Shown here: in pieces, positions 1 to 60,548 of the stretch
How the letters are laid out: every line of letters begins with the position of its first letter
Numbering within the stretch: position 1 is the stretch's first letter
DNA from: Panopea generosa
Lineage: Eukaryota; Mollusca; Bivalvia; Adapedonta; Hiatellidae
Direction: 5' to 3'
DNA: 64,000 nt
NCBI GenBank assembly: GCA_029582155.1
Contig: CM055909.1
Span: forward strand, 22,341,347 to 22,405,346
Notes under the pieces: generated by a model
Told to the model about the DNA's origin: nothing
Database searches by the model: none
What the model saw: only the letters and a program-made list of their open reading frames with translations
Position numbers and translations under genes: made by a program

Positions 1-340
1 ATCCTGAAATAAGTTTATCAATAAATGTAAATGTTTCATGTGCACGTAAAATGTTAATTACATCCATGTATTATTTTTCATCAAAATTTATTAACCTTTA
101 TGTATTTAACACGTGTTATTGCAAGTATTTGTATAAAGCATGAAGCCGCGAAGATTCCACCTGAAAACATATTGCAATTTTCTAAATTAAATGCGATTTA
201 TTATAGTGACAAATAAACGGTCATGGCGATACGAGTACGCACACATATGTATTGTACAATATCGGTTTCGACACATTGGACCAATTAGTTGACGATCAAA
301 GTAATACCAATGTTAAAATGTATCTCTATGTAATCCTTAC

Positions 341-1723
341 CTTAACAACTAATTCTTCTTTCGATCCTTTTCGTTTAATGATCGAAACTGTAAACGATTG
401 TACGTTCGTATTTGTAGTCAGTTGAATAGATTTGATTGGTGTAGGGGTCATGAACCAGAATTTGAGTGTTATGATCTTTTCGTCCCTTTCGAATGGCTTA
501 CTGCGGGGGTTGGGTCTCAGATTTTCAACATCATCCGGAATATCGTTGTTCTCTGTTCGGATATTCGTTGATGGCATAAACAGTGGGTTGTCCATACCTT
601 CCATCATATTACATGTAGTGGTGGTTACACCTTTTAAAAAAAGAGCACGACTTTTAATTAAGAGATCGATACTTATATGCACTGTGTCGACATGTTGTGA
701 TACTAGTCATGGCCATTACAAAGAAAGATTTCGTGTTATTAAGTGATAACTGAAAAAGATATATTGTGGGCCATTATTTCAGACAATGTTGGTAATTTAG
801 CATTGGACTCATACAAATAGTATTAATTCCTTTTCAGATGTCATTAATTGAAAGACAGACTGGAGGAGTAAATGTTTACCGGTTGTAGTTGATGGAACAT
901 ACGACGTACTACTTGTACTTGGTACGTAAGCAGTACTGCTGCTGGTGCTTGGTACGTAAGAAGTACTGCTGCTGGTGCTTGGTACATATGTCGTACTACT
1001 ACCGGTGCTTGGTGCATATTGTGTCGTAGTACTGGTCGGAACATATACCGTACTACTACTTGTACTTGGTACATAAGCGGTACTGCTGCTGGTGCTTGGT
1101 GCGTAAGCAGTACTGCTGCTGGAGCTTGGCACATATGTCGTACTACTGCTGGTGCTTGGTGCATATTGTGTCGTAGTACTGGTCGGAGCATATACCGTAC
1201 TACTACTTGTACTTGGTGCGTAAGCAGTACTGCTGCTAGTGCTTGGTACATATGCAGTACTACTGCTGGTGCTTGGTGCGTAAGCAGTACTGGTGCTGGT
1301 GCTTGGTACATATGACGTACTACTGCTCGTACTTGGTGCATATTGTGTCGCAGTACTGGTTGGAACATATGCCGTACTACTACTTGTACTTGGAACGTAA
1401 GCAGTACTACTGCTGGTGCTTGGTGCGTAGGCAGTACTGCTGCTGGTGCTTGGTACATATGCCGTACTACTGCTCGTACTTGGTGCATATTGTGTCGTAG
1501 TACTGGTCGGAACATATGCCGTACTACTACTTGTACTTGGTACGTAAGCAGTCGATGTGCTTGATGTTCCATAGGGTGTTGTTTCCGTGAGAATTTCGAA
1601 ACAAGCAATGATGGACACCTTTACTTTCATTGGTTGACTATCATCGGATCTCTTAATTTCAATAATGATATCCACTGCCTCAGGTATACCCGGGAAGTTA
1701 ACAGCTTCTTTGGGGTTTGCATC
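341..1723 (-). CDS. Array unit 1: discoidin-like module plus Ser/Thr/Tyr/Pro decapeptide linker (reference unit)
   Basis: Exon A is 880-1723 and exon B is 341-630. Exon A opens after a TTATTTCAG acceptor. It encodes about 46 residues of beta-strand-like sequence ending in SIIACFE (the closing half of the module), then about 22 decapeptides of the type STSSSTAYVP/STSSSTAYAP, and ends at a GTAAAC donor. Exon B opens after TTTTAAAAG, starts GVTTTTCNMMEGMDNPLF, contains ENLRPNPRS and a strand-rich part with NVQSFTVSII, and ends at AAG|GTAAGG. Exon B then continues into exon A of the next unit, where its Cys has a partner in the ACFE motif. By comparison with single-copy modules upstream, the B+A pair is one discoidin-like domain of about 135 residues, and the repeat tract is a likely O-glycosylated extracellular linker. 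Signal peptide and membrane segments are not in this part. Family assignment is inferred from motif layout; splice structure is well supported. Confidence 0.85.
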
Positions 1724-2060
1724 CTGAAATAAGTTTATCAATAAATGTAAATGTTTCATGTGCACGTAAAATGTTAATTACATCCATGTATTATTTTTCA
1801 TCAAAATTTATTAACCTTTATGTATTTAACACGTGTTATTGCAAGTATTTGTATAAAGCATGAAGCCGCGAAGATTCCACCTGAAAACATATTGCAATTT
1901 TCTAAATTAAATGCGATTTATTATAGTGACAAATAAACGGTCATGGCGATACGAGTACGCACACATATGTATTGTACAATATCGGTTTCGACACATTGGA
2001 CCAATTAGTTGACGATCAAAGTAATACCAATGTTAAAATGTATCTCTATGTAATCCTTAC

Positions 2061-3443
2061 CTTAACAACTAATTCTTCTTTCGATCCTTTTCGTTTAATG
2101 ATCGAAACTGTAAACGATTGTACGTTCGTATTTGTAGTCAGTTGAATAGATTTGATTGGTGTAGGGGTCATGAACCAGAATTTGAGTGTTATGATCTTTT
2201 CGTCCCTTTCGAATGGCTTACTGCGGGGGTTGGGTCTCAGATTTTCAACATCATCCGGAATATCGTTGTTCTCTGTTCGGATATTCGTTGATGGCATAAA
2301 CAGTGGGTTGTCCATACCTTCCATCATATTACATGTAGTGGTGGTTACACCTTTTAAAAAAAGAGCACGACTTTTAATTAAGAGATCGATACTTATATGC
2401 ACTGTGTCGACATGTTGTGATACTAGTCATGGCCATTACAAAGAAAGATTTCGTGTTATTAAGTGATAACTGAAAAAGATATATTGTAAGCCATTATTTC
2501 AGACAATGTTGGTAATTTAGCATTGGACTCATACAAATAGTATTAATTCCTTTTCAGATGTCATTAATTGAAAGACAGACTGGAGGAGTAAATGTTTACC
2601 GGTTGTAGTTGATGGAACATACGACGTACTACTTGTACTTGGTACGTAAGCAGTACTGCTGCTGGTGCTTGGTACGTAAGAAGTACTGCTGCTGGTGCTT
2701 GGTACATATGTCGTACTACTACCGGTGCTTGGTGCATATTGTGTCGTAGTACTGGTCGGAACATATACCGTACTACTACTTGTACTTGGTACATAAGCGG
2801 TACTGCTGCTGGTGCTTGGTGCGTAAGCAGTACTGCTGCTGGAGCTTGGCACATATGTCGTACTACTGCTGGTGCTTGGTGCATATTGTGTCGTAGTACT
2901 GGTCGGAGCATATACCGTACTACTACTTGTACTTGGTGCGTAAGCAGTACTGCTGCTAGTGCTGGGTACATATGCAGTACTACTGCTGGTGCTTGGTGCG
3001 TAAGCAGTACTGGTGCTGGTGCTTGGTACATATGACGTACTACTGCTCGTACTTGGTGCATATTGTGTCGCAGTACTGGTTGGAACATATGCCGTACTAC
3101 TACTTGTACTTGGAACGTAAGCAGTACTACTGCTGGTGCTTGGTGCGTAGGCAGTACTGCTGCTGGTGCTTGGTACATATGCCGTACTACTGCTCGTACT
3201 TGGTGCATATTGTGTCGTAGTACTGGTCGGAACATATGCCGTACTACTACTTGTACTTGGTACGTAAGCAGTCGATGTGCTTGATGTTCCATAGGGTGTT
3301 GTTTCCGTGAGAATTTCGAAACAAGCAATGATGGACACCTTTACTTTCATTGGTTGACTATCATCGGATCTCTTAATTTCAATAATGATATCCACTGCCT
3401 CAGGTATACCCGGGAAGTTAACAGCTTCTTTGGGGTTTGCATC
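2061..3443 (-). CDS. Array unit 2
   Basis: Exon A 2600-3443, exon B 2061-2350. The protein is identical to unit 1. Marker differences: AA instead of GG near 2488 (intron), and a T-to-G change near 2964 that is silent in the Ser/Thr/Pro reading frame (Pro CCA to CCC). Confidence 0.85.
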
Positions 3444-3780
3444 CTGAAATAAGTTTATCAATAAATGTAAATGTTTCATGTGCACGTAAAATGTTAATTA
3501 CATCCATGTATTATTTTTCATCAAAATTTATTAACCTTTATGTATTTAACACGTGTTATTGCAAGTATTTGTATAAAGCATGAAGCCGCGAAGATTCCAC
3601 CTGAAAACATATTGCAATTTTCTAAATTAAATGCGATTTATTATAGTGACAAATAAACGGTCATGGCGATACGAGTACGCACACATATGTATTGTACAAT
3701 ATCGGTTTCGACACATTGGACCAATTAGTTGACGATCAAAGTAATACCAATGTTAAAATGTATCTCTATGTAATCCTTAC

Positions 3781-5163
3781 CTTAACAACTAATTCTTCTT
3801 TCGATCCTTTTCGTTTAATGATCGAAACTGTAAACGATTGTACGTTCGTATTTGTAGTCAGTTGAATAGATTTGATTGGTGTAGGGGTCATGAACCAGAA
3901 TTTGAGTGTTATGATCTTTTCGTCCCTTTCGAATGGCTTACTGCGGGGGTTGGGTCTCAGATTTTCAACATCATCCGGAATATCGTTGTTCTCTGTTCGG
4001 ATATTCGTTGATGGCATAAACAGTGGGTTGTCCATACCTTCCATCATATTACATGTAGTGGTGGTTACACCTTTTAAAAAAAGAGCACGACTTTTAATTA
4101 AGAGATCGATACTTATATGCACTGTGTCGACATGTTGTGATACTAGTCATGGCCATTACAAAGAAAGATTTCGTGTTATTAAGTGATAACTGAAAAAGAT
4201 ATATTGTGGGCCATTATTTCAGACAATGTTGGTAATTTAGCATTGGACTCATACAAATAGTATTAATTCCTTTTCAGATGTCATTAATTGAAAGACAGAC
4301 TGGAGGAGTAAATGTTTACCGGTTGTAGTTGATGGAACATACGACGTACTACTTGTACTTGGTACGTAAGCAGTACTGCTGCTGGTGCTTGGTACGTAAG
4401 AAGTACTGCTGCTGGTGCTTGGTACATATGTCGTACTACTACCGGTGCTTGGTGCATATTGTGTCGTAGTACTGGTCGGAACATATACCGTACTACTACT
4501 TGTACTTGGTACATAAGCGGTACTGCTGCTGGTGCTTGGTGCGTAAGCAGTACTGCTGCTGGAGCTTGGCACATATGTCGTACTACTGCTGGTGCTTGGT
4601 GCATATTGTGTCGTAGTACTGGTCGGAGCATATACCGTACTACTACTTGTACTTGGTGCGTAAGCAGTACTGCTGCTAGTGCTTGGTACATATGCAGTAC
4701 TACTGCTGGTGCTTGGTGCGTAAGCAGTACTGGTGCTGGTGCTTGGTACATATGACGTACTACTGCTCGTACTTGGTGCATATTGTGTCGCAGTACTGGT
4801 TGGAACATATGCCGTACTACTACTTGTACTTGGAACGTAAGCAGTACTACTGCTGGTGCTTGGTGCGTAGGCAGTACTGCTGCTGGTGCTTGGTACATAT
4901 GCCGTACTACTGCTCGTACTTGGTGCATATTGTGTCGTAGTACTGGTCGGAACATATGCCGTACTACTACTTGTACTTGGTACGTAAGCAGTCGATGTGC
5001 TTGATGTTCCATAGGGTGTTGTTTCCGTGAGAATTTCGAAACAAGCAATGATGGACACCTTTACTTTCATTGGTTGACTATCATCGGATCTCTTAATTTC
5101 AATAATGATATCCACTGCCTCAGGTATACCCGGGAAGTTAACAGCTTCTTTGGGGTTTGCATC
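3781..5163 (-). CDS. Array unit 3
   Basis: Exon A 4320-5163, exon B 3781-4070. Both exons read identically to unit 1, with the GG intron marker and the Asp form of the globular segment. Confidence 0.85.
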
Positions 5164-5500
5164 CTGAAATAAGTTTATCAATAAATGTAAATGTTTCATG
5201 TGCACGTAAAATGTTAATTACATCCATGTATTATTTTTCATCAAAATTTATTAACCTTTATGTATTTAACACGTGTTATTGCAAGTATTTGTATAAAGCA
5301 TGAAGCCGCGAAGATTCCACCTGAAAACATATTGCAATTTTCTAAATTAAATGCGATTTATTATAGTGACAAATAAACGGTCATGGCGATACGAGTACGC
5401 ACACATATGTATTGTACAATATCGGTTTCGACACATTGGACCAATTAGTTGACGATCAAAGTAATACCAATGTTAAAATGTATCTCTATGTAATCCTTAC

Positions 5501-6883
5501 CTTAACAACTAATTCTTCTTTCGATCCTTTTCGTTTAATGATCGAAACTGTAAACGATTGTACGTTCGTATTTGTAGTCAGTTGAATAGATTTGATTGGT
5601 GTAGGGGTCATGAACCAGAATTTGAGTGTTATGATCTTTTCGTCCCTTTCGAATGGCTTACTGCGGGGGTTGGGTCTCAGATTTTCAACATCATCCGGAA
5701 TATCGTTGTTCTCTGTTCGGATATTCGTTGATGGCATAAACAGTGGGTTGTCCATACCTTCCATCATATTACATGTAGTGGTGGTTACACCTTTTAAAAA
5801 AAGAGCACGACTTTTAATTAAGAGATCGATACTTATATGCACTGTGTCGACATGTTGTGATACTAGTCATGGCCATTACAAAGAAAGATTTCGTGTTATT
5901 AAGTGATAACTGAAAAAGATATATTGTGGGCCATTATTTCAGACAATGTTGGTAATTTAGCATTGGACTCATACAAATAGTATTAATTCCTTTTCAGATG
6001 TCATTAATTGAAAGACAGACTGGAGGAGTAAATGTTTACCGGTTGTAGTTGATGGAACATACGACGTACTACTTGTACTTGGTACGTAAGCAGTACTGCT
6101 GCTGGTGCTTGGTACGTAAGAAGTACTGCTGCTGGTGCTTGGTACATATGTCGTACTACTACCGGTGCTTGGTGCATATTGTGTCGTAGTACTGGTCGGA
6201 ACATATACCGTACTACTACTTGTACTTGGTACATAAGCGGTACTGCTGCTGGTGCTTGGTGCGTAAGCAGTACTGCTGCTGGAGCTTGGCACATATGTCG
6301 TACTACTGCTGGTGCTTGGTGCATATTGTGTCGTAGTACTGGTCGGAGCATATACCGTACTACTACTTGTACTTGGTGCGTAAGCAGTACTGCTGCTAGT
6401 GCTTGGTACATATGCAGTACTACTGCTGGTGCTTGGTGCGTAAGCAGTACTGGTGCTGGTGCTTGGTACATATGACGTACTACTGCTCGTACTTGGTGCA
6501 TATTGTGTCGCAGTACTGGTTGGAACATATGCCGTACTACTACTTGTACTTGGAACGTAAGCAGTACTACTGCTGGTGCTTGGTGCGTAGGCAGTACTGC
6601 TGCTGGTGCTTGGTACATATGCCGTACTACTGCTCGTACTTGGTGCATATTGTGTCGTAGTACTGGTCGGAACATATGCCGTACTACTACTTGTACTTGG
6701 TACGTAAGCAGTCGATGTGCTTGATGTTCCATAGGGTGTTGTTTCCGTGAGAATTTCGAAACAAGCAATGATGGACACCTTTACTTTCATTGGTTGACTA
6801 TCATCGGATCTCTTAATTTCAATAATGATATCCACTGCCTCAGGTATACCCGGGAAGTTAACAGCTTCTTTGGGGTTTGCATC
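5501..6883 (-). CDS. Array unit 4
   Basis: Exon A 6040-6883, exon B 5501-5790. Both exons read identically to unit 1. Confidence 0.85.
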
Positions 6884-7220
6884 CTGAAATAAGTTTATCA
6901 ATAAATGTAAATGTTTCATGTGCACGTAAAATGTTAATTACATCCATGTATTATTTTTCATCAAAATTTATTAACCTTTATGTATTTAACACGTGTTATT
7001 GCAAGTATTTGTATAAAGCATGAAGCCGCGAAGATTCCACCTGAAAACATATTGCAATTTTCTAAATTAAATGCGATTTATTATAGTGACAAATAAACGG
7101 TCATGGCGATACGAGTACGCACACATATGTATTGTACAATATCGGTTTCGACACATTGGACCAATTAGTTGACGATCAAAGTAATACCAATGTTAAAATG
7201 TATCTCTATGTAATCCTTAC

Positions 7221-8603
7221 CTTAACAACTAATTCTTCTTTCGATCCTTTTCGTTTAATGATCGAAACTGTAAACGATTGTACGTTCGTATTTGTAGTCA
7301 GTTGAATAGATTTGATTGGTGTAGGGGTCATGAACCAGAATTTGAGTGTTATGATCTTTTCGTCCCTTTCGAATGGCTTACTGCGGGGGTTGGGTCTCAG
7401 ATTTTCAACATCATCCGGAATATCGTTGTTCTCTGTTCGGATATTCGTTGATGGCATAAACAGTGGGTTGTCCATACCTTCCATCATATTACATGTAGTG
7501 GTGGTTACACCTTTTAAAAAAAGAGCACGACTTTTAATTAAGAGATCGATACTTATATGCACTGTGTCGACATGTTGTGATACTAGTCATGGCCATTACA
7601 AAGAAAGATTTCGTGTTATTAAGTGATAACTGAAAAAGATATATTGTGGGCCATTATTTCAGACAATGTTGGTAATTTAGCATTGGACTCATACAAATAG
7701 TATTAATTCCTTTTCAGATGTCATTAATTGAAAGACAGACTGGAGGAGTAAATGTTTACCGGTTGTAGTTGATGGAACATACGACGTACTACTTGTACTT
7801 GGTACGTAAGCAGTACTGCTGCTGGTGCTTGGTACGTAAGAAGTACTGCTGCTGGTGCTTGGTACATATGTCGTACTACTACCGGTGCTTGGTGCATATT
7901 GTGTCGTAGTACTGGTCGGAACATATACCGTACTACTACTTGTACTTGGTACATAAGCGGTACTGCTGCTGGTGCTTGGTGCGTAAGCAGTACTGCTGCT
8001 GGAGCTTGGCACATATGTCGTACTACTGCTGGTGCTTGGTGCATATTGTGTCGTAGTACTGGTCGGAGCATATACCGTACTACTACTTGTACTTGGTGCG
8101 TAAGCAGTACTGCTGCTAGTGCTGGGTACATATGCAGTACTACTGCTGGTGCTTGGTGCGTAAGCAGTACTGGTGCTGGTGCTTGGTACATATGACGTAC
8201 TACTGCTCGTACTTGGTGCATATTGTGTCGCAGTACTGGTTGGAACATATGCCGTACTACTACTTGTACTTGGAACGTAAGCAGTACTACTGCTGGTGCT
8301 TGGTGCGTAGGCAGTACTGCTGCTGGTGCTTGGTACATATGCCGTACTACTGCTCGTACTTGGTGCATATTGTGTCGTAGTACTGGTCGGAACATATGCC
8401 GTACTACTACTTGTACTTGGTACGTAAGCAGTCGATGTGCTTGATGTTCCATAGGGTGTTGTTTCCGTGAGAATTTCGAAACAAGCAATGATGGACACCT
8501 TTACTTTCATTGGTTGACTATCATCGGATCTCTTAATTTCAATAATGATATCCACTGCCTCAGGTATACCCGGGAAGTTAACAGCTTCTTTGGGGTTTGC
8601 ATC
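7221..8603 (-). CDS. Array unit 5
   Basis: Exon A 7760-8603, exon B 7221-7510. It shares the silent Pro-codon variant of unit 2 (near 8124) but has the GG rather than AA intron marker, so it is a recombinant combination relative to unit 2. Confidence 0.85.
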
Positions 8604-8940
8604 CTGAAATAAGTTTATCAATAAATGTAAATGTTTCATGTGCACGTAAAATGTTAATTACATCCATGTATTATTTTTCATCAAAATTTATTAACCTTTA
8701 TGTATTTAACACGTGTTATTGCAAGTATTTGTATAAAGCATGAAGCCGCGAAGATTCCACCTGAAAACATATTGCAATTTTCTAAATTAAATGCGATTTA
8801 TTATAGTGACAAATAAACGGTCATGGCGATACGAGTACGCACACATATGTATTGTACAATATCGGTTTCGACACATTGGACCAATTAGTTGACGATCAAA
8901 GTAATACCAATGTTAAAATGTATCTCTATGTAATCCTTAC

Positions 8941-10323
8941 CTTAACAACTAATTCTTCTTTCGATCCTTTTCGTTTAATGATCGAAACTGTAAACGATTG
9001 TACGTTCGTATTTGTAGTCAGTTGAATAGATTTGATTGGTGTAGGGGTCATGAACCAGAATTTGAGTGTTATGATCTTTTCGTCCCTTTCGAATGGCTTA
9101 CTGCGGGGGTTGGGTCTCAGATTTTCAACATCATCCGGAATATCGTTGTTCTCTGTTCGGATATTCGTTGATGGCATAAACAGTGGGTTGTCCATACCTT
9201 CCATCATATTACATGTAGTGGTGGTTACACCTTTTAAAAAAAGAGCACGACTTTTAATTAAGAGATCGATACTTATATGCACTGTGTCGACATGTTGTGA
9301 TACTAGTCATGGCCATTACAAAGAAAGATTTCGTGTTATTAAGTGATAACTGAAAAAGATATATTGTAAGCCATTATTTCAGACAATGTTGGTAATTTAG
9401 CATTGGACTCATACAAATAGTATTAATTCCTTTTCAGATGTCATTAATTGAAAGACAGACTGGAGGAGTAAATGTTTACCGGTTGTAGTTGATGGAACAT
9501 ACGACGTACTACTTGTACTTGGTACGTAAGCAGTACTGCTGCTGGTGCTTGGTACGTAAGAAGTACTGCTGCTGGTGCTTGGTACATATGTCGTACTACT
9601 ACCGGTGCTTGGTGCATATTGTGTCGTAGTACTGGTCGGAACATATACCGTACTACTACTTGTACTTGGTACATAAGCGGTACTGCTGCTGGTGCTTGGT
9701 GCGTAAGCAGTACTGCTGCTGGAGCTTGGCACATATGTCGTACTACTGCTGGTGCTTGGTGCATATTGTGTCGTAGTACTGGTCGGAGCATATACCGTAC
9801 TACTACTTGTACTTGGTGCGTAAGCAGTACTGCTGCTAGTGCTTGGTACATATGCAGTACTACTGCTGGTGCTTGGTGCGTAAGCAGTACTGGTGCTGGT
9901 GCTTGGTACATATGACGTACTACTGCTCGTACTTGGTGCATATTGTGTCGCAGTACTGGTTGGAACATATGCCGTACTACTACTTGTACTTGGAACGTAA
10001 GCAGTACTACTGCTGGTGCTTGGTGCGTAGGCAGTACTGCTGCTGGTGCTTGGTACATATGCCGTACTACTGCTCGTACTTGGTGCATATTGTGTCGTAG
10101 TACTGGTCGGAACATATGCCGTACTACTACTTGTACTTGGTACGTAAGCAGTCGATGTGCTTGATGTTCCATAGGGTGTTGTTTCCGTGAGAATTTCGAA
10201 ACAAGCAATGATGGACACCTTTACTTTCATTGGTTGACTATCATCGGATCTCTTAATTTCAATAATGATATCCACTGCCTCAGGTATACCCGGGAAGTTA
10301 ACAGCTTCTTTGGGGTTTGCATC
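8941..10323 (-). CDS. Array unit 6
   Basis: Exon A 9480-10323, exon B 8941-9230. It has the AA intron marker (near 9368) without the silent Pro-codon change seen in unit 2. Confidence 0.85.
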
Positions 10324-10660
10324 CTGAAATAAGTTTATCAATAAATGTAAATGTTTCATGTGCACGTAAAATGTTAATTACATCCATGTATTATTTTTCA
10401 TCAAAATTTATTAACCTTTATGTATTTAACACGTGTTATTGCAAGTATTTGTATAAAGCATGAAGCCGCGAAGATTCCACCTGAAAACATATTGCAATTT
10501 TCTAAATTAAATGCGATTTATTATAGTGACAAATAAACGGTCATGGCGATACGAGTACGCACACATATGTATTGTACAATATCGGTTTCGACACATTGGA
10601 CCAATTAGTTGACGATCAAAGTAATACCAATGTTAAAATGTATCTCTATGTAATCCTTAC

Positions 10661-12043
10661 CTTAACAACTAATTCTTCTTTCGATCCTTTTCGTTTAATG
10701 ATCGAAACTGTAAACGATTGTACGTTCGTATTTGTAGTCAGTTGAATAGATTTGATTGGTGTAGGGGTCATGAACCAGAATTTGAGTGTTATGATCTTTT
10801 CGTCCCTTTCGAATGGCTTACTGCGGGGGTTGGGTCTCAGATTTTCAACATCATCCGGAATATCGTTGTTCTCTGTTCGGATATTCGTTGATGGCATAAA
10901 CAGTGGGTTGTCCATACCTTCCATCATATTACATGTAGTGGTGGTTACACCTTTTAAAAAAAGAGCACGACTTTTAATTAAGAGATCGATACTTATATGC
11001 ACTGTGTCGACATGTTGTGATACTAGTCATGGCCATTACAAAGAAAGATTTCGTGTTATTAAGTGATAACTGAAAAAGATATATTGTGGGCCATTATTTC
11101 AGACAATGTTGGTAATTTAGCATTGGACTCATACAAATAGTATTAATTCCTTTTCAGATGTCATTAATTGAAAGACAGACTGGAGGAGTAAATGTTTACC
11201 GGTTGTAGTTGATGGAACATACGACGTACTACTTGTACTTGGTACGTAAGCAGTACTGCTGCTGGTGCTTGGTACGTAAGAAGTACTGCTGCTGGTGCTT
11301 GGTACATATGTCGTACTACTACCGGTGCTTGGTGCATATTGTGTCGTAGTACTGGTCGGAACATATACCGTACTACTACTTGTACTTGGTACATAAGCGG
11401 TACTGCTGCTGGTGCTTGGTGCGTAAGCAGTACTGCTGCTGGAGCTTGGCACATATGTCGTACTACTGCTGGTGCTTGGTGCATATTGTGTCGTAGTACT
11501 GGTCGGAGCATATACCGTACTACTACTTGTACTTGGTGCGTAAGCAGTACTGCTGCTAGTGCTTGGTACATATGCAGTACTACTGCTGGTGCTTGGTGCG
11601 TAAGCAGTACTGGTGCTGGTGCTTGGTACATATGACGTACTACTGCTCGTACTTGGTGCATATTGTGTCGCAGTACTGGTTGGAACATATGCCGTACTAC
11701 TACTTGTACTTGGAACGTAAGCAGTACTACTGCTGGTGCTTGGTGCGTAGGCAGTACTGCTGCTGGTGCTTGGTACATATGCCGTACTACTGCTCGTACT
11801 TGGTGCATATTGTGTCGTAGTACTGGTCGGAACATATGCCGTACTACTACTTGTACTTGGTACGTAAGCAGTCGATGTGCTTGATGTTCCATAGGGTGTT
11901 GTTTCCGTGAGAATTTCGAAACAAGCAATGATGGACACCTTTACTTTCATTGGTTGACTATTATCGGATCTCTTAATTTCAATAATGATATCCACTGCCT
12001 CAGGTATACCCGGGAAGTTAACAGCTTCTTTGGGGTTTGCATC
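10661..12043 (-). CDS. Array unit 7 (Asn variant)
   Basis: Exon A 11200-12043, exon B 10661-10950. A C-to-T change near 11962 turns the second Asp of the RSDDSQP motif into Asn (RSDNSQP), the only recurrent amino-acid difference among complete units. Confidence 0.85.
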
Positions 12044-12380
12044 CTGAAATAAGTTTATCAATAAATGTAAATGTTTCATGTGCACGTAAAATGTTAATTA
12101 CATCCATGTATTATTTTTCATCAAAATTTATTAACCTTTATGTATTTAACACGTGTTATTGCAAGTATTTGTATAAAGCATGAAGCCGCGAAGATTCCAC
12201 CTGAAAACATATTGCAATTTTCTAAATTAAATGCGATTTATTATAGTGACAAATAAACGGTCATGGCGATACGAGTACGCACACATATGTATTGTACAAT
12301 ATCGGTTTCGACACATTGGACCAATTAGTTGACGATCAAAGTAATACCAATGTTAAAATGTATCTCTATGTAATCCTTAC

Positions 12381-13763
12381 CTTAACAACTAATTCTTCTT
12401 TCGATCCTTTTCGTTTAATGATCGAAACTGTAAACGATTGTACGTTCGTATTTGTAGTCAGTTGAATAGATTTGATTGGTGTAGGGGTCATGAACCAGAA
12501 TTTGAGTGTTATGATCTTTTCGTCCCTTTCGAATGGCTTACTGCGGGGGTTGGGTCTCAGATTTTCAACATCATCCGGAATATCGTTGTTCTCTGTTCGG
12601 ATATTCGTTGATGGCATAAACAGTGGGTTGTCCATACCTTCCATCATATTACATGTAGTGGTGGTTACACCTTTTAAAAAAAGAGCACGACTTTTAATTA
12701 AGAGATCGATACTTATATGCACTGTGTCGACATGTTGTGATACTAGTCATGGCCATTACAAAGAAAGATTTCGTGTTATTAAGTGATAACTGAAAAAGAT
12801 ATATTGTAAGCCATTATTTCAGACAATGTTGGTAATTTAGCATTGGACTCATACAAATAGTATTAATTCCTTTTCAGATGTCATTAATTGAAAGACAGAC
12901 TGGAGGAGTAAATGTTTACCGGTTGTAGTTGATGGAACATACGACGTACTACTTGTACTTGGTACGTAAGCAGTACTGCTGCTGGTGCTTGGTACGTAAG
13001 AAGTACTGCTGCTGGTGCTTGGTACATATGTCGTACTACTACCGGTGCTTGGTGCATATTGTGTCGTAGTACTGGTCGGAACATATACCGTACTACTACT
13101 TGTACTTGGTACATAAGCGGTACTGCTGCTGGTGCTTGGTGCGTAAGCAGTACTGCTGCTGGAGCTTGGCACATATGTCGTACTACTGCTGGTGCTTGGT
13201 GCATATTGTGTCGTAGTACTGGTCGGAGCATATACCGTACTACTACTTGTACTTGGTGCGTAAGCAGTACTGCTGCTAGTGCTTGGTACATATGCAGTAC
13301 TACTGCTGGTGCTTGGTGCGTAAGCAGTACTGGTGCTGGTGCTTGGTACATATGACGTACTACTGCTCGTACTTGGTGCATATTGTGTCGCAGTACTGGT
13401 TGGAACATATGCCGTACTACTACTTGTACTTGGAACGTAAGCAGTACTACTGCTGGTGCTTGGTGCGTAGGCAGTACTGCTGCTGGTGCTTGGTACATAT
13501 GCCGTACTACTGCTCGTACTTGGTGCATATTGTGTCGTAGTACTGGTCGGAACATATGCCGTACTACTACTTGTACTTGGTACGTAAGCAGTCGATGTGC
13601 TTGATGTTCCATAGGGTGTTGTTTCCGTGAGAATTTCGAAACAAGCAATGATGGACACCTTTACTTTCATTGGTTGACTATCATCGGATCTCTTAATTTC
13701 AATAATGATATCCACTGCCTCAGGTATACCCGGGAAGTTAACAGCTTCTTTGGGGTTTGCATC
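12381..13763 (-). CDS. Array unit 8
   Basis: Exon A 12920-13763, exon B 12381-12670. Asp form, with the AA intron marker near 12808. Confidence 0.85.
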
Positions 13764-14100
13764 CTGAAATAAGTTTATCAATAAATGTAAATGTTTCATG
13801 TGCACGTAAAATGTTAATTACATCCATGTATTATTTTTCATCAAAATTTATTAACCTTTATGTATTTAACACGTGTTATTGCAAGTATTTGTATAAAGCA
13901 TGAAGCCGCGAAGATTCCACCTGAAAACATATTGCAATTTTCTAAATTAAATGCGATTTATTATAGTGACAAATAAACGGTCATGGCGATACGAGTACGC
14001 ACACATATGTATTCTACAATATCGGTTTCGACACATTGGACCAATTAGTTGACGATCAAAGTAATACCAATGTTAAAATGTATCTCTATGTAATCCTTAC

Positions 14101-15483
14101 CTTAACAACTAATTCTTCTTTCGATCCTTTTCGTTTAATGATCGAAACTGTAAACGATTGTACGTTCGTATTTGTAGTCAGTTGAATAGATTTGATTGGT
14201 GTAGGGGTCATGAACCAGAATTTGAGTGTTATGATCTTTTCGTCCCTTTCGAATGGCTTACTGCGGGGGTTGGGTCTCAGATTTTCAACATCATCCGGAA
14301 TATCGTTGTTCTCTGTTCGGATATTCGTTGATGGCATAAACAGTGGGTTGTCCATACCTTCCATCATATTACATGTAGTGGTGGTTACACCTTTTAAAAA
14401 AAGAGCACGACTTTTAATTAAGAGATCGATACTTATATGCACTGTGTCGACATGTTGTGATACTAGTCATGGCCATTACAAAGAAAGATTTCGTGTTATT
14501 AAGTGATAACTGAAAAAGATATATTGTGGGCCATTATTTCAGACAATGTTGGTAATTTAGCATTGGACTCATACAAATAGTATTAATTCCTTTTCAGATG
14601 TCATTAATTGAAAGACAGACTGGAGGAGTAAATGTTTACCGGTTGTAGTTGATGGAACATACGACGTACTACTTGTACTTGGTACGTAAGCAGTACTGCT
14701 GCTGGTGCTTGGTACGTAAGAAGTACTGCTGCTGGTGCTTGGTACATATGTCGTACTACTACCGGTGCTTGGTGCATATTGTGTCGTAGTACTGGTCGGA
14801 ACATATACCGTACTACTACTTGTACTTGGTACATAAGCGGTACTGCTGCTGGTGCTTGGTGCGTAAGCAGTACTGCTGCTGGAGCTTGGCACATATGTCG
14901 TACTACTGCTGGTGCTTGGTGCATATTGTGTCGTAGTACTGGTCGGAGCATATACCGTACTACTACTTGTACTTGGTGCGTAAGCAGTACTGCTGCTAGT
15001 GCTTGGTACATATGCAGTACTACTGCTGGTGCTTGGTGCGTAAGCAGTACTGGTGCTGGTGCTTGGTACATATGACGTACTACTGCTCGTACTTGGTGCA
15101 TATTGTGTCGCAGTACTGGTTGGAACATATGCCGTACTACTACTTGTACTTGGAACGTAAGCAGTACTACTGCTGGTGCTTGGTGCGTAGGCAGTACTGC
15201 TGCTGGTGCTTGGTACATATGCCGTACTACTGCTCGTACTTGGTGCATATTGTGTCGTAGTACTGGTCGGAACATATGCCGTACTACTACTTGTACTTGG
15301 TACGTAAGCAGTCGATGTGCTTGATGTTCCATAGGGTGTTGTTTCCGTGAGAATTTCGAAACAAGCAATGATGGACACCTTTACTTTCATTGGTTGACTA
15401 TTATCGGATCTCTTAATTTCAATAATGATATCCACTGCCTCAGGTATACCCGGGAAGTTAACAGCTTCTTTGGGGTTTGCATC
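14101..15483 (-). CDS. Array unit 9 (Asn variant)
   Basis: Exon A 14640-15483, exon B 14101-14390. Asn form. The intron below exon B carries a G-to-C marker near 14014 that recurs at the same unit position near 19174, 20895 and 22616. Confidence 0.85.
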
Positions 15484-15821
15484 CTGAAATAAGTTTATCA
15501 ATAAATGTAAATGTTTCATGTGCACGTAAAATGTTAATTACATCCATGTATTATTTTTCATCAAAATTTATTAACCTTTATGTATTTAACACGTGTTATT
15601 GCAAGTATTTGTATAAAGCATGAAGCCGCGAAGATTCCACCTGAAAACATATTGCAATTTTCTAAATTAAATGCGATTTATTATAGTGACAAATAAACGG
15701 TCATGGCGATACGAGTACGCACACATATGTATTGCTACAATATCGGTTTCGACACATTGGACCAATTAGTTGACGATCAAAGTAATACCAATGTTAAAAT
15801 GTATCTCTATGTAATCCTTAC

Positions 15822-17204
15822 CTTAACAACTAATTCTTCTTTCGATCCTTTTCGTTTAATGATCGAAACTGTAAACGATTGTACGTTCGTATTTGTAGTC
15901 AGTTGAATAGATTTGATTGGTGTAGGGGTCATGAACCAGAATTTGAGTGTTATGATCTTTTCGTCCCTTTCGAATGGCTTACTGCGGGGGTTGGGTCTCA
16001 GATTTTCAACATCATCCGGAATATCGTTGTTCTCTGTTCGGATATTCGTTGATGGCATAAACAGTGGGTTGTCCATACCTTCCATCATATTACATGTAGT
16101 GGTGGTTACACCTTTTAAAAAAAGAGCACGACTTTTAATTAAGAGATCGATACTTATATGCACTGTGTCGACATGTTGTGATACTAGTCATGGCCATTAC
16201 AAAGAAAGATTTCGTGTTATTAAGTGATAACTGAAAAAGATATATTGTGGGCCATTATTTCAGACAATGTTGGTAATTTAGCATTGGACTCATACAAATA
16301 GTATTAATTCCTTTTCAGATGTCATTAATTGAAAGACAGACTGGAGGAGTAAATGTTTACCGGTTGTAGTTGATGGAACATACGACGTACTACTTGTACT
16401 TGGTACGTAAGCAGTACTGCTGCTGGTGCTTGGTACGTAAGAAGTACTGCTGCTGGTGCTTGGTACATATGTCGTACTACTACCGGTGCTTGGTGCATAT
16501 TGTGTCGTAGTACTGGTCGGAACATATACCGTACTACTACTTGTACTTGGTACATAAGCGGTACTGCTGCTGGTGCTTGGTGCGTAAGCAGTACTGCTGC
16601 TGGAGCTTGGCACATATGTCGTACTACTGCTGGTGCTTGGTGCATATTGTGTCGTAGTACTGGTCGGAGCATATACCGTACTACTACTTGTACTTGGTGC
16701 GTAAGCAGTACTGCTGCTAGTGCTTGGTACATATGCAGTACTACTGCTGGTGCTTGGTGCGTAAGCAGTACTGGTGCTGGTGCTTGGTACATATGACGTA
16801 CTACTGCTCGTACTTGGTGCATATTGTGTCGCAGTACTGGTTGGAACATATGCCGTACTACTACTTGTACTTGGAACGTAAGCAGTACTACTGCTGGTGC
16901 TTGGTGCGTAGGCAGTACTGCTGCTGGTGCTTGGTACATATGCCGTACTACTGCTCGTACTTGGTGCATATTGTGTCGTAGTACTGGTCGGAACATATGC
17001 CGTACTACTACTTGTACTTGGTACGTAAGCAGTCGATGTGCTTGATGTTCCATAGGGTGTTGTTTCCGTGAGAATTTCGAAACAAGCAATGATGGACACC
17101 TTTACTTTCATTGGTTGACTATTATCGGATCTCTTAATTTCAATAATGATATCCACTGCCTCAGGTATACCCGGGAAGTTAACAGCTTCTTTGGGGTTTG
17201 CATC
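15822..17204 (-). CDS. Array unit 10 (Asn variant)
   Basis: Exon A 16361-17204, exon B 15822-16111. Asn form. A single C inserted near 15735 lies in the intron below exon B and shifts the spacing of the array by one base without touching coding sequence. Confidence 0.85.
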
Positions 17205-17541
17205 CTGAAATAAGTTTATCAATAAATGTAAATGTTTCATGTGCACGTAAAATGTTAATTACATCCATGTATTATTTTTCATCAAAATTTATTAACCTTT
17301 ATGTATTTAACACGTGTTATTGCAAGTATTTGTATAAAGCATGAAGCCGCGAAGATTCCACCTGAAAACATATTGCAATTTTCTAAATTAAATGCGATTT
17401 ATTATAGTGACAAATAAACGGTCATGGCGATACGAGTACGCACACATATGTATTGTACAATATCGGTTTCGACACATTGGACCAATTAATTGACGATCAA
17501 AGTAATACCAATGTTAAAATGTATCTCTATGTAATCCTTAC

Positions 17542-18925
17542 CTTAACAACTAATTCTTCTTTCGATCCTTTTCGTTTAATGATCGAAACTGTAAACGATT
17601 GTACGTTCGTATTTGTAGTCAGTTGAATAGATTTGATTGGTGTAGGGGTCATGAACCAGAATTTGAGTGTTATGATCTTTTCGTCCCTTTCGAATGGCTT
17701 ACTGCGGGGGTTGGGTCTCAGATTTTCAACATCATCCGGAATATCGTTGTTCTCTGTTCGGATATTCCGTTGATGGCATAAACAGTGGGTTGTCCATACC
17801 TTCCATCATATTACATGTAGTGGTGGTTACACCTTTTAAAAAAAGAGCACGACTTTTAATTAAGAGATCGATACTTATATGCACTGTGTCGACATGTTGT
17901 GATACTAGTCATGGCCATTACAAAGAAAGATTTCGTGTTATTAAGTGATAACTGAAAAAGATATATTGTGGGCCATTATTTCAGACAATGTTGGTAATTT
18001 AGCATTGGACTCATACAAATAGTATTAATTCCTTTTCAGATGTCATTAATTGAAAGACAGACTGGAGGAGTAAATGTTTACCGGTTGTAGTTGATGGAAC
18101 ATACGACGTACTACTTGTACTTGGTACGTAAGCAGTACTGCTGCTGGTGCTTGGTACGTAAGAAGTACTGCTGCTGGTGCTTGGTACATATGTCGTACTA
18201 CTACCGGTGCTTGGTGCATATTGTGTCGTAGTACTGGTCGGAACATATACCGTACTACTACTTGTACTTGGTACATAAGCGGTACTGCTGCTGGTGCTTG
18301 GTGCGTAAGCAGTACTGCTGCTGGAGCTTGGCACATATGTCGTACTACTGCTGGTGCTTGGTGCATATTGTGTCGTAGTACTGGTCGGAGCATATACCGT
18401 ACTACTACTTGTACTTGGTGCGTAAGCAGTACTGCTGCTAGTGCTTGGTACATATGCAGTACTACTGCTGGTGCTTGGTGCGTAAGCAGTACTGGTGCTG
18501 GTGCTTGGTACATATGACGTACTACTGCTCGTACTTGGTGCATATTGTGTCGCAGTACTGGTTGGAACATATGCCGTACTACTACTTGTACTTGGAACGT
18601 AAGCAGTACTACTGCTGGTGCTTGGTGCGTAGGCAGTACTGCTGCTGGTGCTTGGTACATATGCCGTACTACTGCTCGTACTTGGTGCATATTGTGTCGT
18701 AGTACTGGTCGGAACATATGCCGTACTACTACTTGTACTTGGTACGTAAGCAGTCGATGTGCTTGATGTTCCATAGGGTGTTGTTTCCGTGAGAATTTCG
18801 AAACAAGCAATGATGGACACCTTTACTTTCATTGGTTGACTATTATCGGATCTCTTAATTTCAATAATGATATCCACTGCCTCAGGTATACCCGGGAAGT
18901 TAACAGCTTCTTTGGGGTTTGCATC
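17542..18925 (-). CDS. Array unit 11: exon B frameshifted by a 1-bp insertion
   Basis: Exon A 18082-18925 is intact (Asn form). Exon B 17542-17832 is 291 bp instead of 290: an extra C sits in the GATATTCC run near 17767. Read in the normal frame, translation departs just after the MPST motif and meets a TGA about a dozen codons later. If real, this truncates the giant protein here or requires skipping of the unit; exon A plus exon B of one unit could be skipped together without breaking phase. A one-base assembly or polishing error in a repetitive array is an equally good explanation. Confidence 0.75.
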
Positions 18926-19262
18926 CTGAAATAAGTTTATCAATAAATGTAAATGTTTCATGTGCACGTAAAATGTTAATTACATCCATGTATTATTTTT
19001 CATCAAAATTTATTAACCTTTATGTATTTAACACGTGTTATTGCAAGTATTTGTATAAAGCATGAAGCCGCGAAGATTCCACCTGAAAACATATTGCAAT
19101 TTTCTAAATTAAATGCGATTTATTATAGTGACAAATAAACGGTCATGGCGATACGAGTACGCACACATATGTATTCTACAATATCGGTTTCGACACATTG
19201 GACCAATTAGTTGACGATCAAAGTAATACCAATGTTAAAATGTATCTCTATGTAATCCTTAC

Positions 19263-20645
19263 CTTAACAACTAATTCTTCTTTCGATCCTTTTCGTTTAA
19301 TGATCGAAACTGTAAACGATTGTACGTTCGTATTTGTAGTCAGTTGAATAGATTTGATTGGTGTAGGGGTCATGAACCAGAATTTGAGTGTTATGATCTT
19401 TTCGTCCCTTTCGAATGGCTTACTGCGGGGGTTGGGTCTCAGATTTTCAACATCATCCGGAATATCGTTGTTCTCTGTTCGGATATTCGTTGATGGCATA
19501 AACAGTGGGTTGTCCATACCTTCCATCATATTACATGTAGTGGTGGTTACACCTTTTAAAAAAAGAGCACGACTTTTAATTAAGAGATCGATACTTATAT
19601 GCACTGTGTCGACATGTTGTGATACTAGTCATGGCCATTACAAAGAAAGATTTCGTGTTATTAAGTGATAACTGAAAAAGATATATTGTGGGCCATTATT
19701 TCAGACAATGTTGGTAATTTAGCATTGGACTCATACAAATAGTATTAATTCCTTTTCAGATGTCATTAATTGAAAGACAGACTGGAGGAGTAAATGTTTA
19801 CCGGTTGTAGTTGATGGAACATACGACGTACTACTTGTACTTGGTACGTAAGCAGTACTGCTGCTGGTGCTTGGTACGTAAGAAGTACTGCTGCTGGTGC
19901 TTGGTACATATGTCGTACTACTACCGGTGCTTGGTGCATATTGGGTCGTAGTACTGGTCGGAACATATACCGTACTACTACTTGTACTTGGTACATAAGC
20001 GGTACTGCTGCTGGTGCTTGGTGCGTAAGCAGTACTGCTGCTGGAGCTTGGCACATATGTCGTACTACTGCTGGTGCTTGGTGCATATTGTGTCGTAGTA
20101 CTGGTCGGAGCATATACCGTACTACTACTTGTACTTGGTGCGTAAGCAGTACTGCTGCTAGTGCTTGGTACATATGCAGTACTACTGCTGGTGCTTGGTG
20201 CGTAAGCAGTACTGGTGCTGGTGCTTGGTACATATGACGTACTACTGCTCGTACTTGGTGCATATTGTGTCGCAGTACTGGTTGGAACATATGCCGTACT
20301 ACTACTTGTACTTGGAACGTAAGCAGTACTACTGCTGGTGCTTGGTGCGTAGGCAGTACTGCTGCTGGTGCTTGGTACATATGCCGTACTACTGCTCGTA
20401 CTTGGTGCATATTGTGTCGTAGTACTGGTCGGAACATATGCCGTACTACTACTTGTACTTGGTACGTAAGCAGTCGATGTGCTTGATGTTCCATAGGGTG
20501 TTGTTTCCGTGAGAATTTCGAAACAAGCAATGATGGACACCTTTACTTTCATTGGTTGACTATCATCGGATCTCTTAATTTCAATAATGATATCCACTGC
20601 CTCAGGTATACCCGGGAAGTTAACAGCTTCTTTGGGGTTTGCATC
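19263..20645 (-). CDS. Array unit 12
   Basis: Exon A 19802-20645, exon B 19263-19552. Asp form. A T-to-G change near 19944 is silent in the repeat frame (Thr ACA to ACC) although it would change residues in the overlapping frames. Confidence 0.85.
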
Positions 20646-20982
20646 CTGAAATAAGTTTATCAATAAATGTAAATGTTTCATGTGCACGTAAAATGTTAAT
20701 TACATCCATGTATTATTTTTCATCAAAATTTATTAACCTTTATGTATTTAACACGTGTTATTGCAAGTATTTGTATAAAGCATGAAGCCGCGAAGATTCC
20801 ACCTGAAAACATATTGCAATTTTCTAAATTAAATGCGATTTATTATAGTGACAAATAAACGGTCATGGCGATACGAGTACGCACACATATGTATTCTACA
20901 ATATCGGTTTCGACACATTGGACCAATTAGTTGACGATCAAAGTAATACCAATGTTAAAATGTATCTCTATGTAATCCTTAC

Positions 20983-22365
20983 CTTAACAACTAATTCTTC
21001 TTTCGATCCTTTTCGTTTAATGATCGAAACTGTAAACGATTGTACGTTCGTATTTGTAGTCAGTTGAATAGATTTGATTGGTGTAGGGGTCATGAACCAG
21101 AATTTGAGTGTTATGATCTTTTCGTCCCTTTCGAATGGCTTACTGCGGGGGTTGGGTCTCAGATTTTCAACATCATCCGGAATATCGTTGTTCTCTGTTC
21201 GGATATTCGTTGATGGCATAAACAGTGGGTTGTCCATACCTTCCATCATATTACATGTAGTGGTGGTTACACCTTTTAAAAAAAGAGCACGACTTTTAAT
21301 TAAGAGATCGATACTTATATGCACTGTGTCGACATGTTGTGATACTAGTCATGGCCATTACAAAGAAAGATTTCGTGTTATTAAGTGATAACTGAAAAAG
21401 ATATATTGTGGGCCATTATTTCAGACAATGTTGGTAATTTAGCATTGGACTCATACAAATAGTATTAATTCCTTTTCAGATGTCATTAATTGAAAGACAG
21501 ACTGGAGGAGTAAATGTTTACCGGTTGTAGTTGATGGAACATACGACGTACTACTTGTACTTGGTACGTAAGCAGTACTGCTGCTGGTGCTTGGTACGTA
21601 AGAAGTACTGCTGCTGGTGCTTGGTACATATGTCGTACTACTACCGGTGCTTGGTGCATATTGTGTCGTAGTACTGGTCGGAACATATACCGTACTACTA
21701 CTTGTACTTGGTACATAAGCGGTACTGCTGCTGGTGCTTGGTGCGTAAGCAGTACTGCTGCTGGAGCTTGGCACATATGTCGTACTACTGCTGGTGCTTG
21801 GTGCATATTGTGTCGTAGTACTGGTCGGAGCATATACCGTACTACTACTTGTACTTGGTGCGTAAGCAGTACTGCTGCTAGTGCTTGGTACATATGCAGT
21901 ACTACTGCTGGTGCTTGGTGCGTAAGCAGTACTGGTGCTGGTGCTTGGTACATATGACGTACTACTGCTCGTACTTGGTGCATATTGTGTCGCAGTACTG
22001 GTTGGAACATATGCCGTACTACTACTTGTACTTGGAACGTAAGCAGTACTACTGCTGGTGCTTGGTGCGTAGGCAGTACTGCTGCTGGTGCTTGGTACAT
22101 ATGCCGTACTACTGCTCGTACTTGGTGCATATTGTGTCGTAGTACTGGTCGGAACATATGCCGTACTACTACTTGTACTTGGTACGTAAGCAGTCGATGT
22201 GCTTGATGTTCCATAGGGTGTTGTTTCCGTGAGAATTTCGAAACAAGCAATGATGGACACCTTTACTTTCATTGGTTGACTATTATCGGATCTCTTAATT
22301 TCAATAATGATATCCACTGCCTCAGGTATACCCGGGAAGTTAACAGCTTCTTTGGGGTTTGCATC
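20983..22365 (-). CDS. Array unit 13 (Asn variant)
   Basis: Exon A 21522-22365, exon B 20983-21272. Asn form. This is the last unit with a complete exon A toward the upstream (high-coordinate) edge of the array. Confidence 0.85.
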
Positions 22366-22702
22366 CTGAAATAAGTTTATCAATAAATGTAAATGTTTCA
22401 TGTGCACGTAAAATGTTAATTACATCCATGTATTATTTTTCATCAAAATTTATTAACCTTTATGTATTTAACACGTGTTTTTGCAAGTATTTGTATAAAG
22501 CATGAAGCCGCGAAGATTCCACCTGAAAACATATTGCAATTTTCTAAATTAAATGCGATTTATTATAGTGACAAATAAACGGTCATGGCGATACGAGTAC
22601 GCACACATATGTATTCTACAATATCGGTTTCGACACATTGGACCAATTAGTTGACGATCAAAGTAATACCAATGTTAAAACGTATCTCTATGTAATCCTT
22701 AC

Positions 22703-22992
22703 CTTAACAACTAATTCTTCTTTCGATCCTTTTCGTTTAATGATCGAAACTGTAAACGATTGTACGTTCGTATTTGTAGTCAGTTGAATAGATTTGATTG
22801 GTGTAGGGGTCATGAACCAGAATTTGAGTGTTATGATCTTTTCGTCCCTTTCGAATGGCTTACTGCGGGGGTTGGGTCTCAGATTTTCAACATCATCCGG
22901 AATATTGTTGTTCTCTGTTCGGATATTCCTTGATGGCATAAAGAGTGGGTTGTCCATACCTTCCATCATATTACATGTAGTGGTGGTTACAC
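22703..22992 (-). CDS. Array unit 14: exon B only, most diverged copy
   Basis: Exon B keeps its acceptor (now TATTTTAAAAG) and donor and is open throughout. It has more changes than any other copy: Thr to Arg after MPS, Asp to Asn in the ENND motif, and several substitutions in the flanking intron. Its own exon A is missing: just above it the intron sequence (ending near 23200) jumps directly into Ser/Thr-repeat DNA without a donor site. The exon can still receive a phase-1 splice from the exon at about 25100 or from the linker exon at 29978-30028. Confidence 0.75.
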
Positions 22993-23199
22993 CTTTTAAA
23001 ATAAGAGCACGAATTTTAATTAAGATATCGATACTTATATGCACTGTGTCGACATGTTGTGATACTAGTCATGGCCATTACAAAGAAAGATTTCGTGTTA
23101 TTAAGTGATATCTGAAAAAAATATATTGTGGGCCATTATTTCAGACAATGTTGGTAATTTAGCATTGGACTCATACAAATAGTATTAATTCCTTTTCAG

Positions 23200-24985: not shown

Positions 24986-25084
24986 CGGATATGTATAAGT
25001 CAATATTGGAAAAAATATATAATATAACTAATTCTTAGTCAGATTTCATTAATTGAAAAAAAGTATGGAGTTTAACTATTTACC

Positions 25085-25617
25085 CGGTGTAGTGGATGGC
25101 ACATACGACGTGGTGCTGATCGTACTTGGTGAAAATTGTGTCGCAGTACTACTGCTTGTGCTTGGTGCATATGCTGTACTGCTGCTTGTGCTTGGTACAT
25201 ATGCTGTACTAGTACTCGTGCTTGGTGCATATGCTGTACTGCTGCTCGTGCTTGGTACATATGCTGAACTGCTGCTCGTGCTTGATACATACGCTGTACT
25301 GCTGCTCGTGCTTGGTACGTATGCTGTACTGCTGCTCGTGCTTGGTACATACGCTGTACTGCTGCTCGTGCTTGGTGCATACTCTGTACTGCTGCTCGTG
25401 CTTGGTGCATACACTGTACTGCTGCTTGTGCTTGGTGCATATTCTGTACTGCTGCTCGTGTTTGGTACGTAAGCTGTACTGCTGCTTGTGCTTGGTGCAT
25501 AAGCTGTGTTGCTGCTCGTGCTTGGTACATATGCTGTGCTGCTGCGCGTGCTTGTTACAATGCTGAACTGCTGCTCGTGCTTGGAACATATGCTGTTCTG
25601 CTGCTTGTTCTTGGGAT
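25085..25617 (-). pseudogene. Ser/Thr/Pro decapeptide exon with an internal frameshift
   Basis: About 17 decapeptides (STSSSTAYVP type) end in PSTTPG at a phase-1 CCGG|GTAAAT donor, the same ending as array exon A. An acceptor-like TTTAG lies near 25621. From that acceptor the phase-1 frame starts correctly (PRTSSRTAYVPSTSSSS) but meets TAA after about 23 residues, because the unit near 25555 is 29 bp, one base short. Beyond it the Ser/Thr frame is open to the donor. Its DNA unit resembles the 34.8-36.8 kb tract more than the array. It is either a broken exon, or an intact exon spoiled by one sequencing error. Confidence 0.6.

Positions 25618-42693: not shown

Positions 42694-42696
<3 letters not shown>

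Positions 42697-42742
<46 letters not shown>
42697..42742. repeat. (GT)n microsatellite
   Basis: Uninterrupted GT run of about 23 units. Confidence 0.95.
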
Positions 42743-42744
<2 letters not shown>

Positions 42745-60508: not shown

Positions 60509-60548
60509 ACAGCGAAAACATACAAAATAAAGCTAAATGTTTTAATAC

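Follow-up and report, generated by a model that had tools for sequence, protein, structure and literature searches.

The first 22,992 positions of the stretch of 64,000 nucleotides of contig CM055909.1 analysed here (the window) carry a tandem array of 1,720-bp cassettes, each formed by two exons with their introns and each coding for one cysteine-bounded module followed by a long Ser/Thr-rich linker. Judged by its sequence, the array looks like part of a larger mucin-like gene on the minus strand, probably an animal's. The best explanation, which we consider probable, is that of a large secreted mucin-like gene in which a two-exon module-linker cassette was recently amplified and was homogenised by exchange or gene conversion. 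The array itself is confirmed as real, striking and well formed.

The copies of the unit were anchored on the first 30 bases of its first exon (exon A). Fourteen minus-strand copies of this start are found from 22992 down to 630, with a spacing of 1720 bp and two spacings of 1721 bp. The 16-base words recur at the same distances (n = 14,135 at 1720 and n = 2,690 at 1721). The copies define thirteen complete units (22992-631) and a partial fourteenth (630-1), placed head to tail. An earlier reading made from the letters alone (the sequence-only reading) had described near-identical head-to-tail units of about 1,720 bp, which is confirmed with an identity of 99.80%. The direction of transcription, whose strand was left unstated in that reading, runs from high to low coordinates on the minus strand. 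The window start cuts the last unit and, consequently, the array extends past the window and contains at least thirteen complete units. The units are the following:

1..22992, minus strand: the tandem array of 1,720-bp cassettes, thirteen complete and a partial fourteenth, placed by anchor copies, alignment and splice sites
21273..22992, minus strand: U1, first transcribed and most diverged; exon A 22992-22703, exon B 22365-21522
19553..21272, minus strand: U2; exon A 21272-20983, exon B 20645-19802
17833..19552, minus strand: U3; exon A 19552-19263, exon B 18925-18082
16112..17832, minus strand: U4, 1721 bp; exon A 17832-17542 with a one-base frame-breaking insertion, exon B 17204-16361
14391..16111, minus strand: U5, 1721 bp; exon A 16111-15822, exon B 15483-14640; a one-base insertion in intron 1
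12671..14390, minus strand: U6; exon A 14390-14101, exon B 13763-12920
10951..12670, minus strand: U7; exon A 12670-12381, exon B 12043-11200
9231..10950, minus strand: U8; exon A 10950-10661, exon B 10323-9480
7511..9230, minus strand: U9; exon A 9230-8941, exon B 8603-7760
5791..7510, minus strand: U10, identical to U11 and U13; exon A 7510-7221, exon B 6883-6040
4071..5790, minus strand: U11; exon A 5790-5501, exon B 5163-4320
2351..4070, minus strand: U12; exon A 4070-3781, exon B 3443-2600
631..2350, minus strand: U13; exon A 2350-2061, exon B 1723-880
1..630, minus strand: U14, partial; exon A 630-341, intron 1 and the first bases of exon B

The consensus unit contains an exon A of 290 nt, an intron 1 of 337 nt, an exon B of 844 nt and an intron 2 of 249 nt. 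The coding part amounts to 290 + 844 = 1134 nt, or 378 residues; the size step of about 377 residues in the sequence-only reading is thus borne out, with 378 as its exact value. Exon A is entered in phase 1 and left in phase 0, and exon B is entered in phase 0 and left in phase 1. Since the entry and exit phases of the unit are equal and the coding length is 1,134 nt, the frame is kept at every whole copy number, as had been proposed from the intron phases. Symmetric phases (phase 1 in and out) and a unit of whole codons are marks of a variable number tandem repeat (VNTR) of the LPA type, and both are found here. The typical splice sites of a unit are AAAAG|GTGTAA, GTTAAG|GTAAGG, TTTCAG|GATGCA and CAACCG|GTAAAC, and, counting exon A of U14 with the 13 complete pairs, the window has 27 array exons, each of them preceded by AG and followed by GT. 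The spliced frame is free of stops in 12 of the 13 complete units as assembled.

The module, which has two cysteines, occupies residues 1-148 of the unit, and the linker its final 230 residues. The linker contains 140 Ser and Thr residues (61%) and 23 Pro, with no D, E, K, R, H, N or C. It comprises 23 decapeptide-like repeats by pattern count; the decapeptide linker had been recognised before, with a count of about 22. It constitutes a long Pro/Thr/Ser domain as used to recognise gel-forming mucins, and three other linker frames have 54-62% Ser/Thr; the linkers in the frames of 729 and 258 residues placed below are made of the same kind of decapeptide. The exon/intron layout supports the earlier view that a two-exon cassette of domain plus mucin linker, introns included, is the repeat unit. 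The linker DNA also repeats within itself at lags of 30, 147, 177 and 324 bp, with identities of 63%, 79%, 71% and 83%, respectively, compared with 26% in shuffles (tested at lag 147). The identity is 99.8% at the 1720-bp level and lower at these shorter lags and, therefore, the longest level of repetition is the youngest.

The alignment of the units contains 14 variable columns (four in exon A, five in intron 1, three in exon B and two in intron 2), which correspond to 12 substitutions and two single-base insertions; because the cut end of U14 is poorly aligned, its final dozen visible columns were masked for this count. U14 does not enter the pairwise and four-combination counts, which refer to the 13 complete units. 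The mean pairwise difference is 3.4 per 1720 nt and drops to 2.7 without U1. Substitutions affect 6 of the 1134 exon positions and 6 of the 586 intron positions, with no detectable difference in density (Fisher p 0.36), in agreement with the claim that exons and introns are equally conserved. Three of the six exon substitutions alter a residue. The lack of a sign of selection on the exons is expected for very young copies. U1 has five private substitutions, including the residue changes T22R and D30N. Private differences are also present in U2 (one substitution), U4 (two differences) and U5 (one difference), and are absent from the other nine complete units.

All four combinations of variants occur at five of the ten pairs formed by the five informative columns: 379 with 711, 1584 and 1585, and 1109 with 1584 and 1585. 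Columns 1584 and 1585 are always linked, which leaves three independent pairs at most. The simplest reading is that the variants were shuffled among units by exchange or gene conversion; the four combinations could also stem from recurrent mutation or from a chimeric assembly. Near-identical units with their introns and shuffled variants are further marks of an LPA-type VNTR present in this array.

Along the gene, the C8, TIL and LDLa domains come first, followed by five modules (M1-M5) that alternate with long Thr/Ser linkers and then by the array. The features placed upstream of the array are, in the order of the gene:

62582..62872, minus strand: N-terminal half of C8, E 6.5e-4, below the cut-off; C8 is split on two exons
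61259..61396, minus strand: C-terminal half of C8, E 1.7e-9
60448..60717, minus strand: TIL domain, E 4e-10
52449..57344, minus strand: LDL-receptor class A repeats, in six open reading frames above the Pfam cut-off, one of them with two stretches
49085..51303, minus strand: M1, three exons
46735..47844, minus strand: M2, two exons; exon A 66-76% identical to the proteins P0001-P0004
44657..45430, minus strand: open frame of 258 residues with the M2-M3 linker, 22 YxP-type repeats, no stop
41386..44282, minus strand: M3, two exons; sub-threshold F5/8 type C match, E 0.003
37937..39059, minus strand: M4, two exons, phases 1/0 and 0/1
34788..36974, minus strand: open frame of 729 residues between M4 and M5 with the longest linker, 65 YxP-type repeats, Ser and Thr 57%, no stop
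32346..34877, minus strand: M5, three exons, the first part fused to a long linker exon

Each of the modules M1-M5 has a first and a last Cys and a phase 1 exit. Their identity to the array module is 19-26%, and the alignment of the six modules has three invariant positions, C5, P38 and C136 (array-module numbering as aligned). AG and GT are present at both ends in 11 of the 13 placed non-array exons; the donor of M1b and the acceptor of M5a, whose coordinates are 2-3 bases off, were read separately in the sequence. In von Willebrand factor and gel-forming mucins, C8 and TIL occur together with VWD domains, and a VWD domain may lie beyond 64000, where the gene leaves the window. The 3' end of the gene, where a gel-forming mucin would have its cystine knot or dimerisation domain, falls past the window start.

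The minus strand at 61240-62160 contains three similar short stretches in a row, approximately CDMDDDCEWLRSAI, CDKSGDCECLQTAI and CDMGGDCECLCTAI. The last of them (61259-61396) is the one scored as the C-terminal half of C8, and the other two, by their look, may be C8 exons that are duplicated or relic. A tandem repeat with a 45-bp unit, about 28 copies and 88% matches occupies 30923-32184, directly following the final exon of M5. The Pfam matches of the linkers to Extensin_1, Epiplasmin and CotJA were rejected as compositional (low complexity).

In the proposed mechanism, the window would be the minus-strand middle of the gene, in which C8/TIL and LDLa precede Cys-bounded modules that alternate with Ser/Thr/Pro linkers. 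One two-exon block between phase-1 introns would have been amplified in tandem, recently, to at least 13 copies by unequal exchange. In-register unequal exchange would gain or lose whole units in frame, and exchange would also spread variants among them. The copy number would set the number of modules and the length of the O-glycosylated rod in steps of 378 residues. With each unit the protein would gain a module and an uncharged rod rich in Ser and Thr, to which O-glycans would be attached along the secretory path. The secreted chain would be long and would carry many equal modules; it could form polymers through a VWD-type assembly on its N-terminal side and bind in a multivalent manner. We infer from the gene structure its transcription, splicing, O-glycosylation and secretion, the closure of each module by a disulfide between its two cysteines, and the multivalent binding. 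Copy number would also be polymorphic between individuals.

The nature of the module bears on what such a chain would bind. The sequence-only reading had called the array module discoidin-like, a label that the searches do not confirm: the array module has no match in Pfam even at E 10. M3 alone resembles the F5/8 type C family (PF00754), at E 0.003 over profile positions 23-114, with 18.1 bits against a curated cut-off of 28.2, and PF00754 has no match in the other five of the six modules. A true discoidin domain that binds glycans or lipid, with the array as a lectin chain, is compatible with the amplification of the cassette in a secreted mucin-like gene, and we place it slightly on the doubtful side. 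The M3 match speaks for it, as do the first and last Cys of the modules, which we take to resemble the F5/8 type C family. The array-type modules also align weakly to M2/M3, as the profile of the array unit, M1, M4 and M5 gave E 0.0011 in hhalign but a probability of 20.6; on the other hand, the same profile gave nothing with the M2 family. The sequence searches of the PDB had best E-values of 1.2, 0.34, none and 0.72, none of them significant: the best match of the six-module profile was 4a3z, an alpha-N-acetylglucosaminidase family protein (E 1.2), and the array module alone reached E 0.72. A discoidin domain would have an eight-strand galactose-binding-like fold. Structures were predicted for two exon-A halves; they are too poor to use (pLDDT 48.5 and 56.5), and the better one found no match at E <= 0.001 in a fold search. 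With the evidence so divided, 'discoidin-like' is kept for the array module as a lead that could equally well hold or fail.

The six-module profile found four short proteins at E <= 0.01, which are relatives of M2 exon A. The relatives of this exon (47576-47842, minus strand) in the protein collection (sources lgn, ena and jgi) are 66-76% identical to it and one of them lies on a 3 Mb contig; therefore, at least M2 is conserved elsewhere. Among 8 pattern matches in viral contigs and 53 in contigs of bacterial and archaeal genomes, no relative of P0003 was confirmed.

The edge from which the array is entered contains three features:

25084..25622, minus strand: linker exon before the array, 539 nt
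22993..25083, minus strand: intron of 2,091 bp between this linker exon and U1
23191..24980, minus strand: linker relic in this intron, with Thr/Ser decapeptide DNA, frame changes and a lost donor site

A stretch of 183 nt from 25200 downwards matches the end of the unit's exon B and the beginning of its intron 2 with an identity of 74.9%. The linker exon has the sites TTTAG|CTAGCA and CACCGG|GTAAAT and runs from phase 1 to phase 1. Inside the intron, the decayed linker spans about 1.8 kb, with 4, 10 and 30 stops in 596 codons in the three frames. Given the stops, the frame changes and the lost donor site, 23191-24980 was rejected as an expressed linker. This decayed duplicate directly before the array is perhaps the scar of an earlier exchange.

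Several observations weigh against a recently amplified cassette within a functional secreted mucin-like gene. A spliced query of 905 residues, scored over residues 1-145, gave 91 candidate homologues of the array module, none at E <= 0.01, and a query of 95 residues from exon A, four of which at its end come from reading on into the intron, gave no candidate in the protein collection. These searches thus found no homologue of the array module. No VWD match was obtained in the pieces scanned, which do not span the whole 5' part. The acceptor of exon A ends in AAAAG, which is weaker than CAG. Half of the ten column pairs lack the four combinations. U4 carries an extra G in exon A, which leads to 28 stops in its spliced frame. 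As assembled, the 539 nt of the linker exon that precedes the array do not divide by three and put it one base out of frame; its acceptor-side frame meets a stop at about 25557 and its later decapeptides lie in another frame. Owing to the breaks in U4 and in this linker exon, no complete read-through protein would be made unless they are assembly errors or the exons are skipped. The breaks in U4 and near 25557 may be either real or consensus errors of this one assembly.

Frame-broken units find a place in a more far-reaching reading, which we regard as unlikely. It proposes an uncatalogued extracellular module in a hypervariable array of two-exon cassettes, homogenised by gene conversion, in which the number of units varies widely between individuals and broken units are tolerated by phase-1 skipping of units or linker exons; what the animal secretes would be a multivalent polymer of variable size. 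Skipping of the linker exon before the array could take place with the frame kept.

A quite improbable alternative is that the array is partly an artefact, in which the assembler expanded or concatenated near-identical copies and the true number of units is smaller or different. U10, U11 and U13 are identical and, consequently, the sequence alone cannot secure their number; private differences are missing from 9 of the 13 complete units, and the single-base insertions of U4 and U5 have the look of errors in the consensus. On the other hand, the combinations of variants differ between units, the haplotype strings show by eye no repeated multi-unit block of the sort expected from the concatenation of two haplotypes, and the edge unit U1 has its five private substitutions. 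The variants argue for several real units, not for an exact number.

Little credence is also given to a decaying or dead array, with the gene truncated upstream or within and the likeness of the copies due to recent duplication and gene conversion rather than selection: the frame breaks at about 25557 and in U4, the decayed linker relic just before the array and the similar conservation of exons and introns would fit it, whereas the stop-free frames in 12 of the 13 complete units and in two other long linkers (729 and 258 residues) stand against it, the linker exon before the array has a phase-1 site at either end and could drop out without loss of frame, and copies this young do not allow a test for selection.

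A large secreted mucin-like gene with a recently amplified cassette can be compared with several known systems. The kringles of LPA are joined by short Ser/Thr/Pro-rich glycosylated linkers. The KIV-2 repeat of LPA is, like the array, a two-exon tandem unit with introns and highly homologous copies, with one folded domain per unit in LPA, and its copy number changes the protein, a polymorphism that is demonstrated in LPA and that we infer here. LPA differs by its kringle, its unit of about 5.6 kb and its short linker, compared with 1.72 kb, an unrelated module and a mucin linker of 230 residues. The passages on KIV-2 in PMC11201333 (also PMC12123407) describe two exons per kringle, the unit of about 5.6 kb and up to 40 repeats per allele.

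The repeat of the mucin MUC16 (CA125) resembles the array in joining a folded domain (SEA) and a Ser/Thr-rich stretch over several exons, and differs in the SEA domain, the five exons and its partly conserved repeats, compared with two exons and 99.8% identical units. In the relevant part of PMC3431878, a single MUC16 repeat has five exons, 156 aa with the SEA domain and 1,900 bp. In that of PMC10829539, 2,340 nt coding for five repeats are termed 'an exon', so that the count of five exons depends on PMC3431878 and its source. A secreted epithelial protein, DMBT1 (salivary agglutinin), shares with the array the tandem domains with interspersed segments. Its domains are SRCR domains and its SID segments are short. 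An excerpt of PMC4851238 presents the tandem SRCR domains interspersed with SID and an allelic number estimated at 7-20.

MUC5AC/MUC5B and chicken MUC2 are similar to the array in having small Cys-rich domains among Pro/Thr/Ser (PTS) repeats. The CysD of MUC5AC/MUC5B is not the array module, and the human MUC5AC/5B repeats lie in one large exon. The sections concerned report near-identical CysD domains that alternate with PTS repeats in MUC5AC/MUC5B (PMC9712336) and, in chicken MUC2, ten repeats of 69 residues interspersed with two CysD domains in exons 32-45 (PMC3549977). LPA and mucins are treated together in the available text of a VNTR review (PMC12776774).

The statement in the sequence-only reading that mucin repeats elsewhere normally lie in one exon without a folded domain is contradicted by LPA, MUC16, DMBT1 and MUC5AC/5B. 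Its suggestion of an undescribed arrangement is not supported either, as multi-exon domain-plus-linker repeats are known from LPA and MUC16. Within a limited open-licence literature, judged by title and start of abstract, no described gene of such a layout in molluscs or bivalves, or treatment of multi-exon VNTRs generally, was recognised. A paper on polymorphic mucins of Schistosoma (PMC2576457) also came up in this literature. By analogy, the locus is taken to work like LPA, MUC16, DMBT1, MUC5AC/MUC5B and chicken MUC2, with a module matched to none of their domains. On the same comparison, it is best regarded as a good new example of a multi-exon domain-plus-linker repeat and not as a new principle.

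Apart from these features, the window contains minisatellites with shortest units of 32-59 bp at 27400-27670, 29019-29410, 59508-59655 and 63565-63803, located between exons or near the window end. Scanning the window with Rfam at gathering thresholds and for tRNAs gave no hit.

The LPA/MUC16 type of multi-exon coding repeat appears to occur here in a mucin-like gene, where its module goes unrecognised by Pfam and the identity of 99.8% includes the introns. Arrays of this kind are hard to assemble and alter the protein length in large steps; in LPA, the repeat number affects human cardiovascular risk. Gene models and copy numbers taken from assemblies of such loci need long-read support. The locus offers a clean case for studying how a cassette array grows and becomes homogenised.

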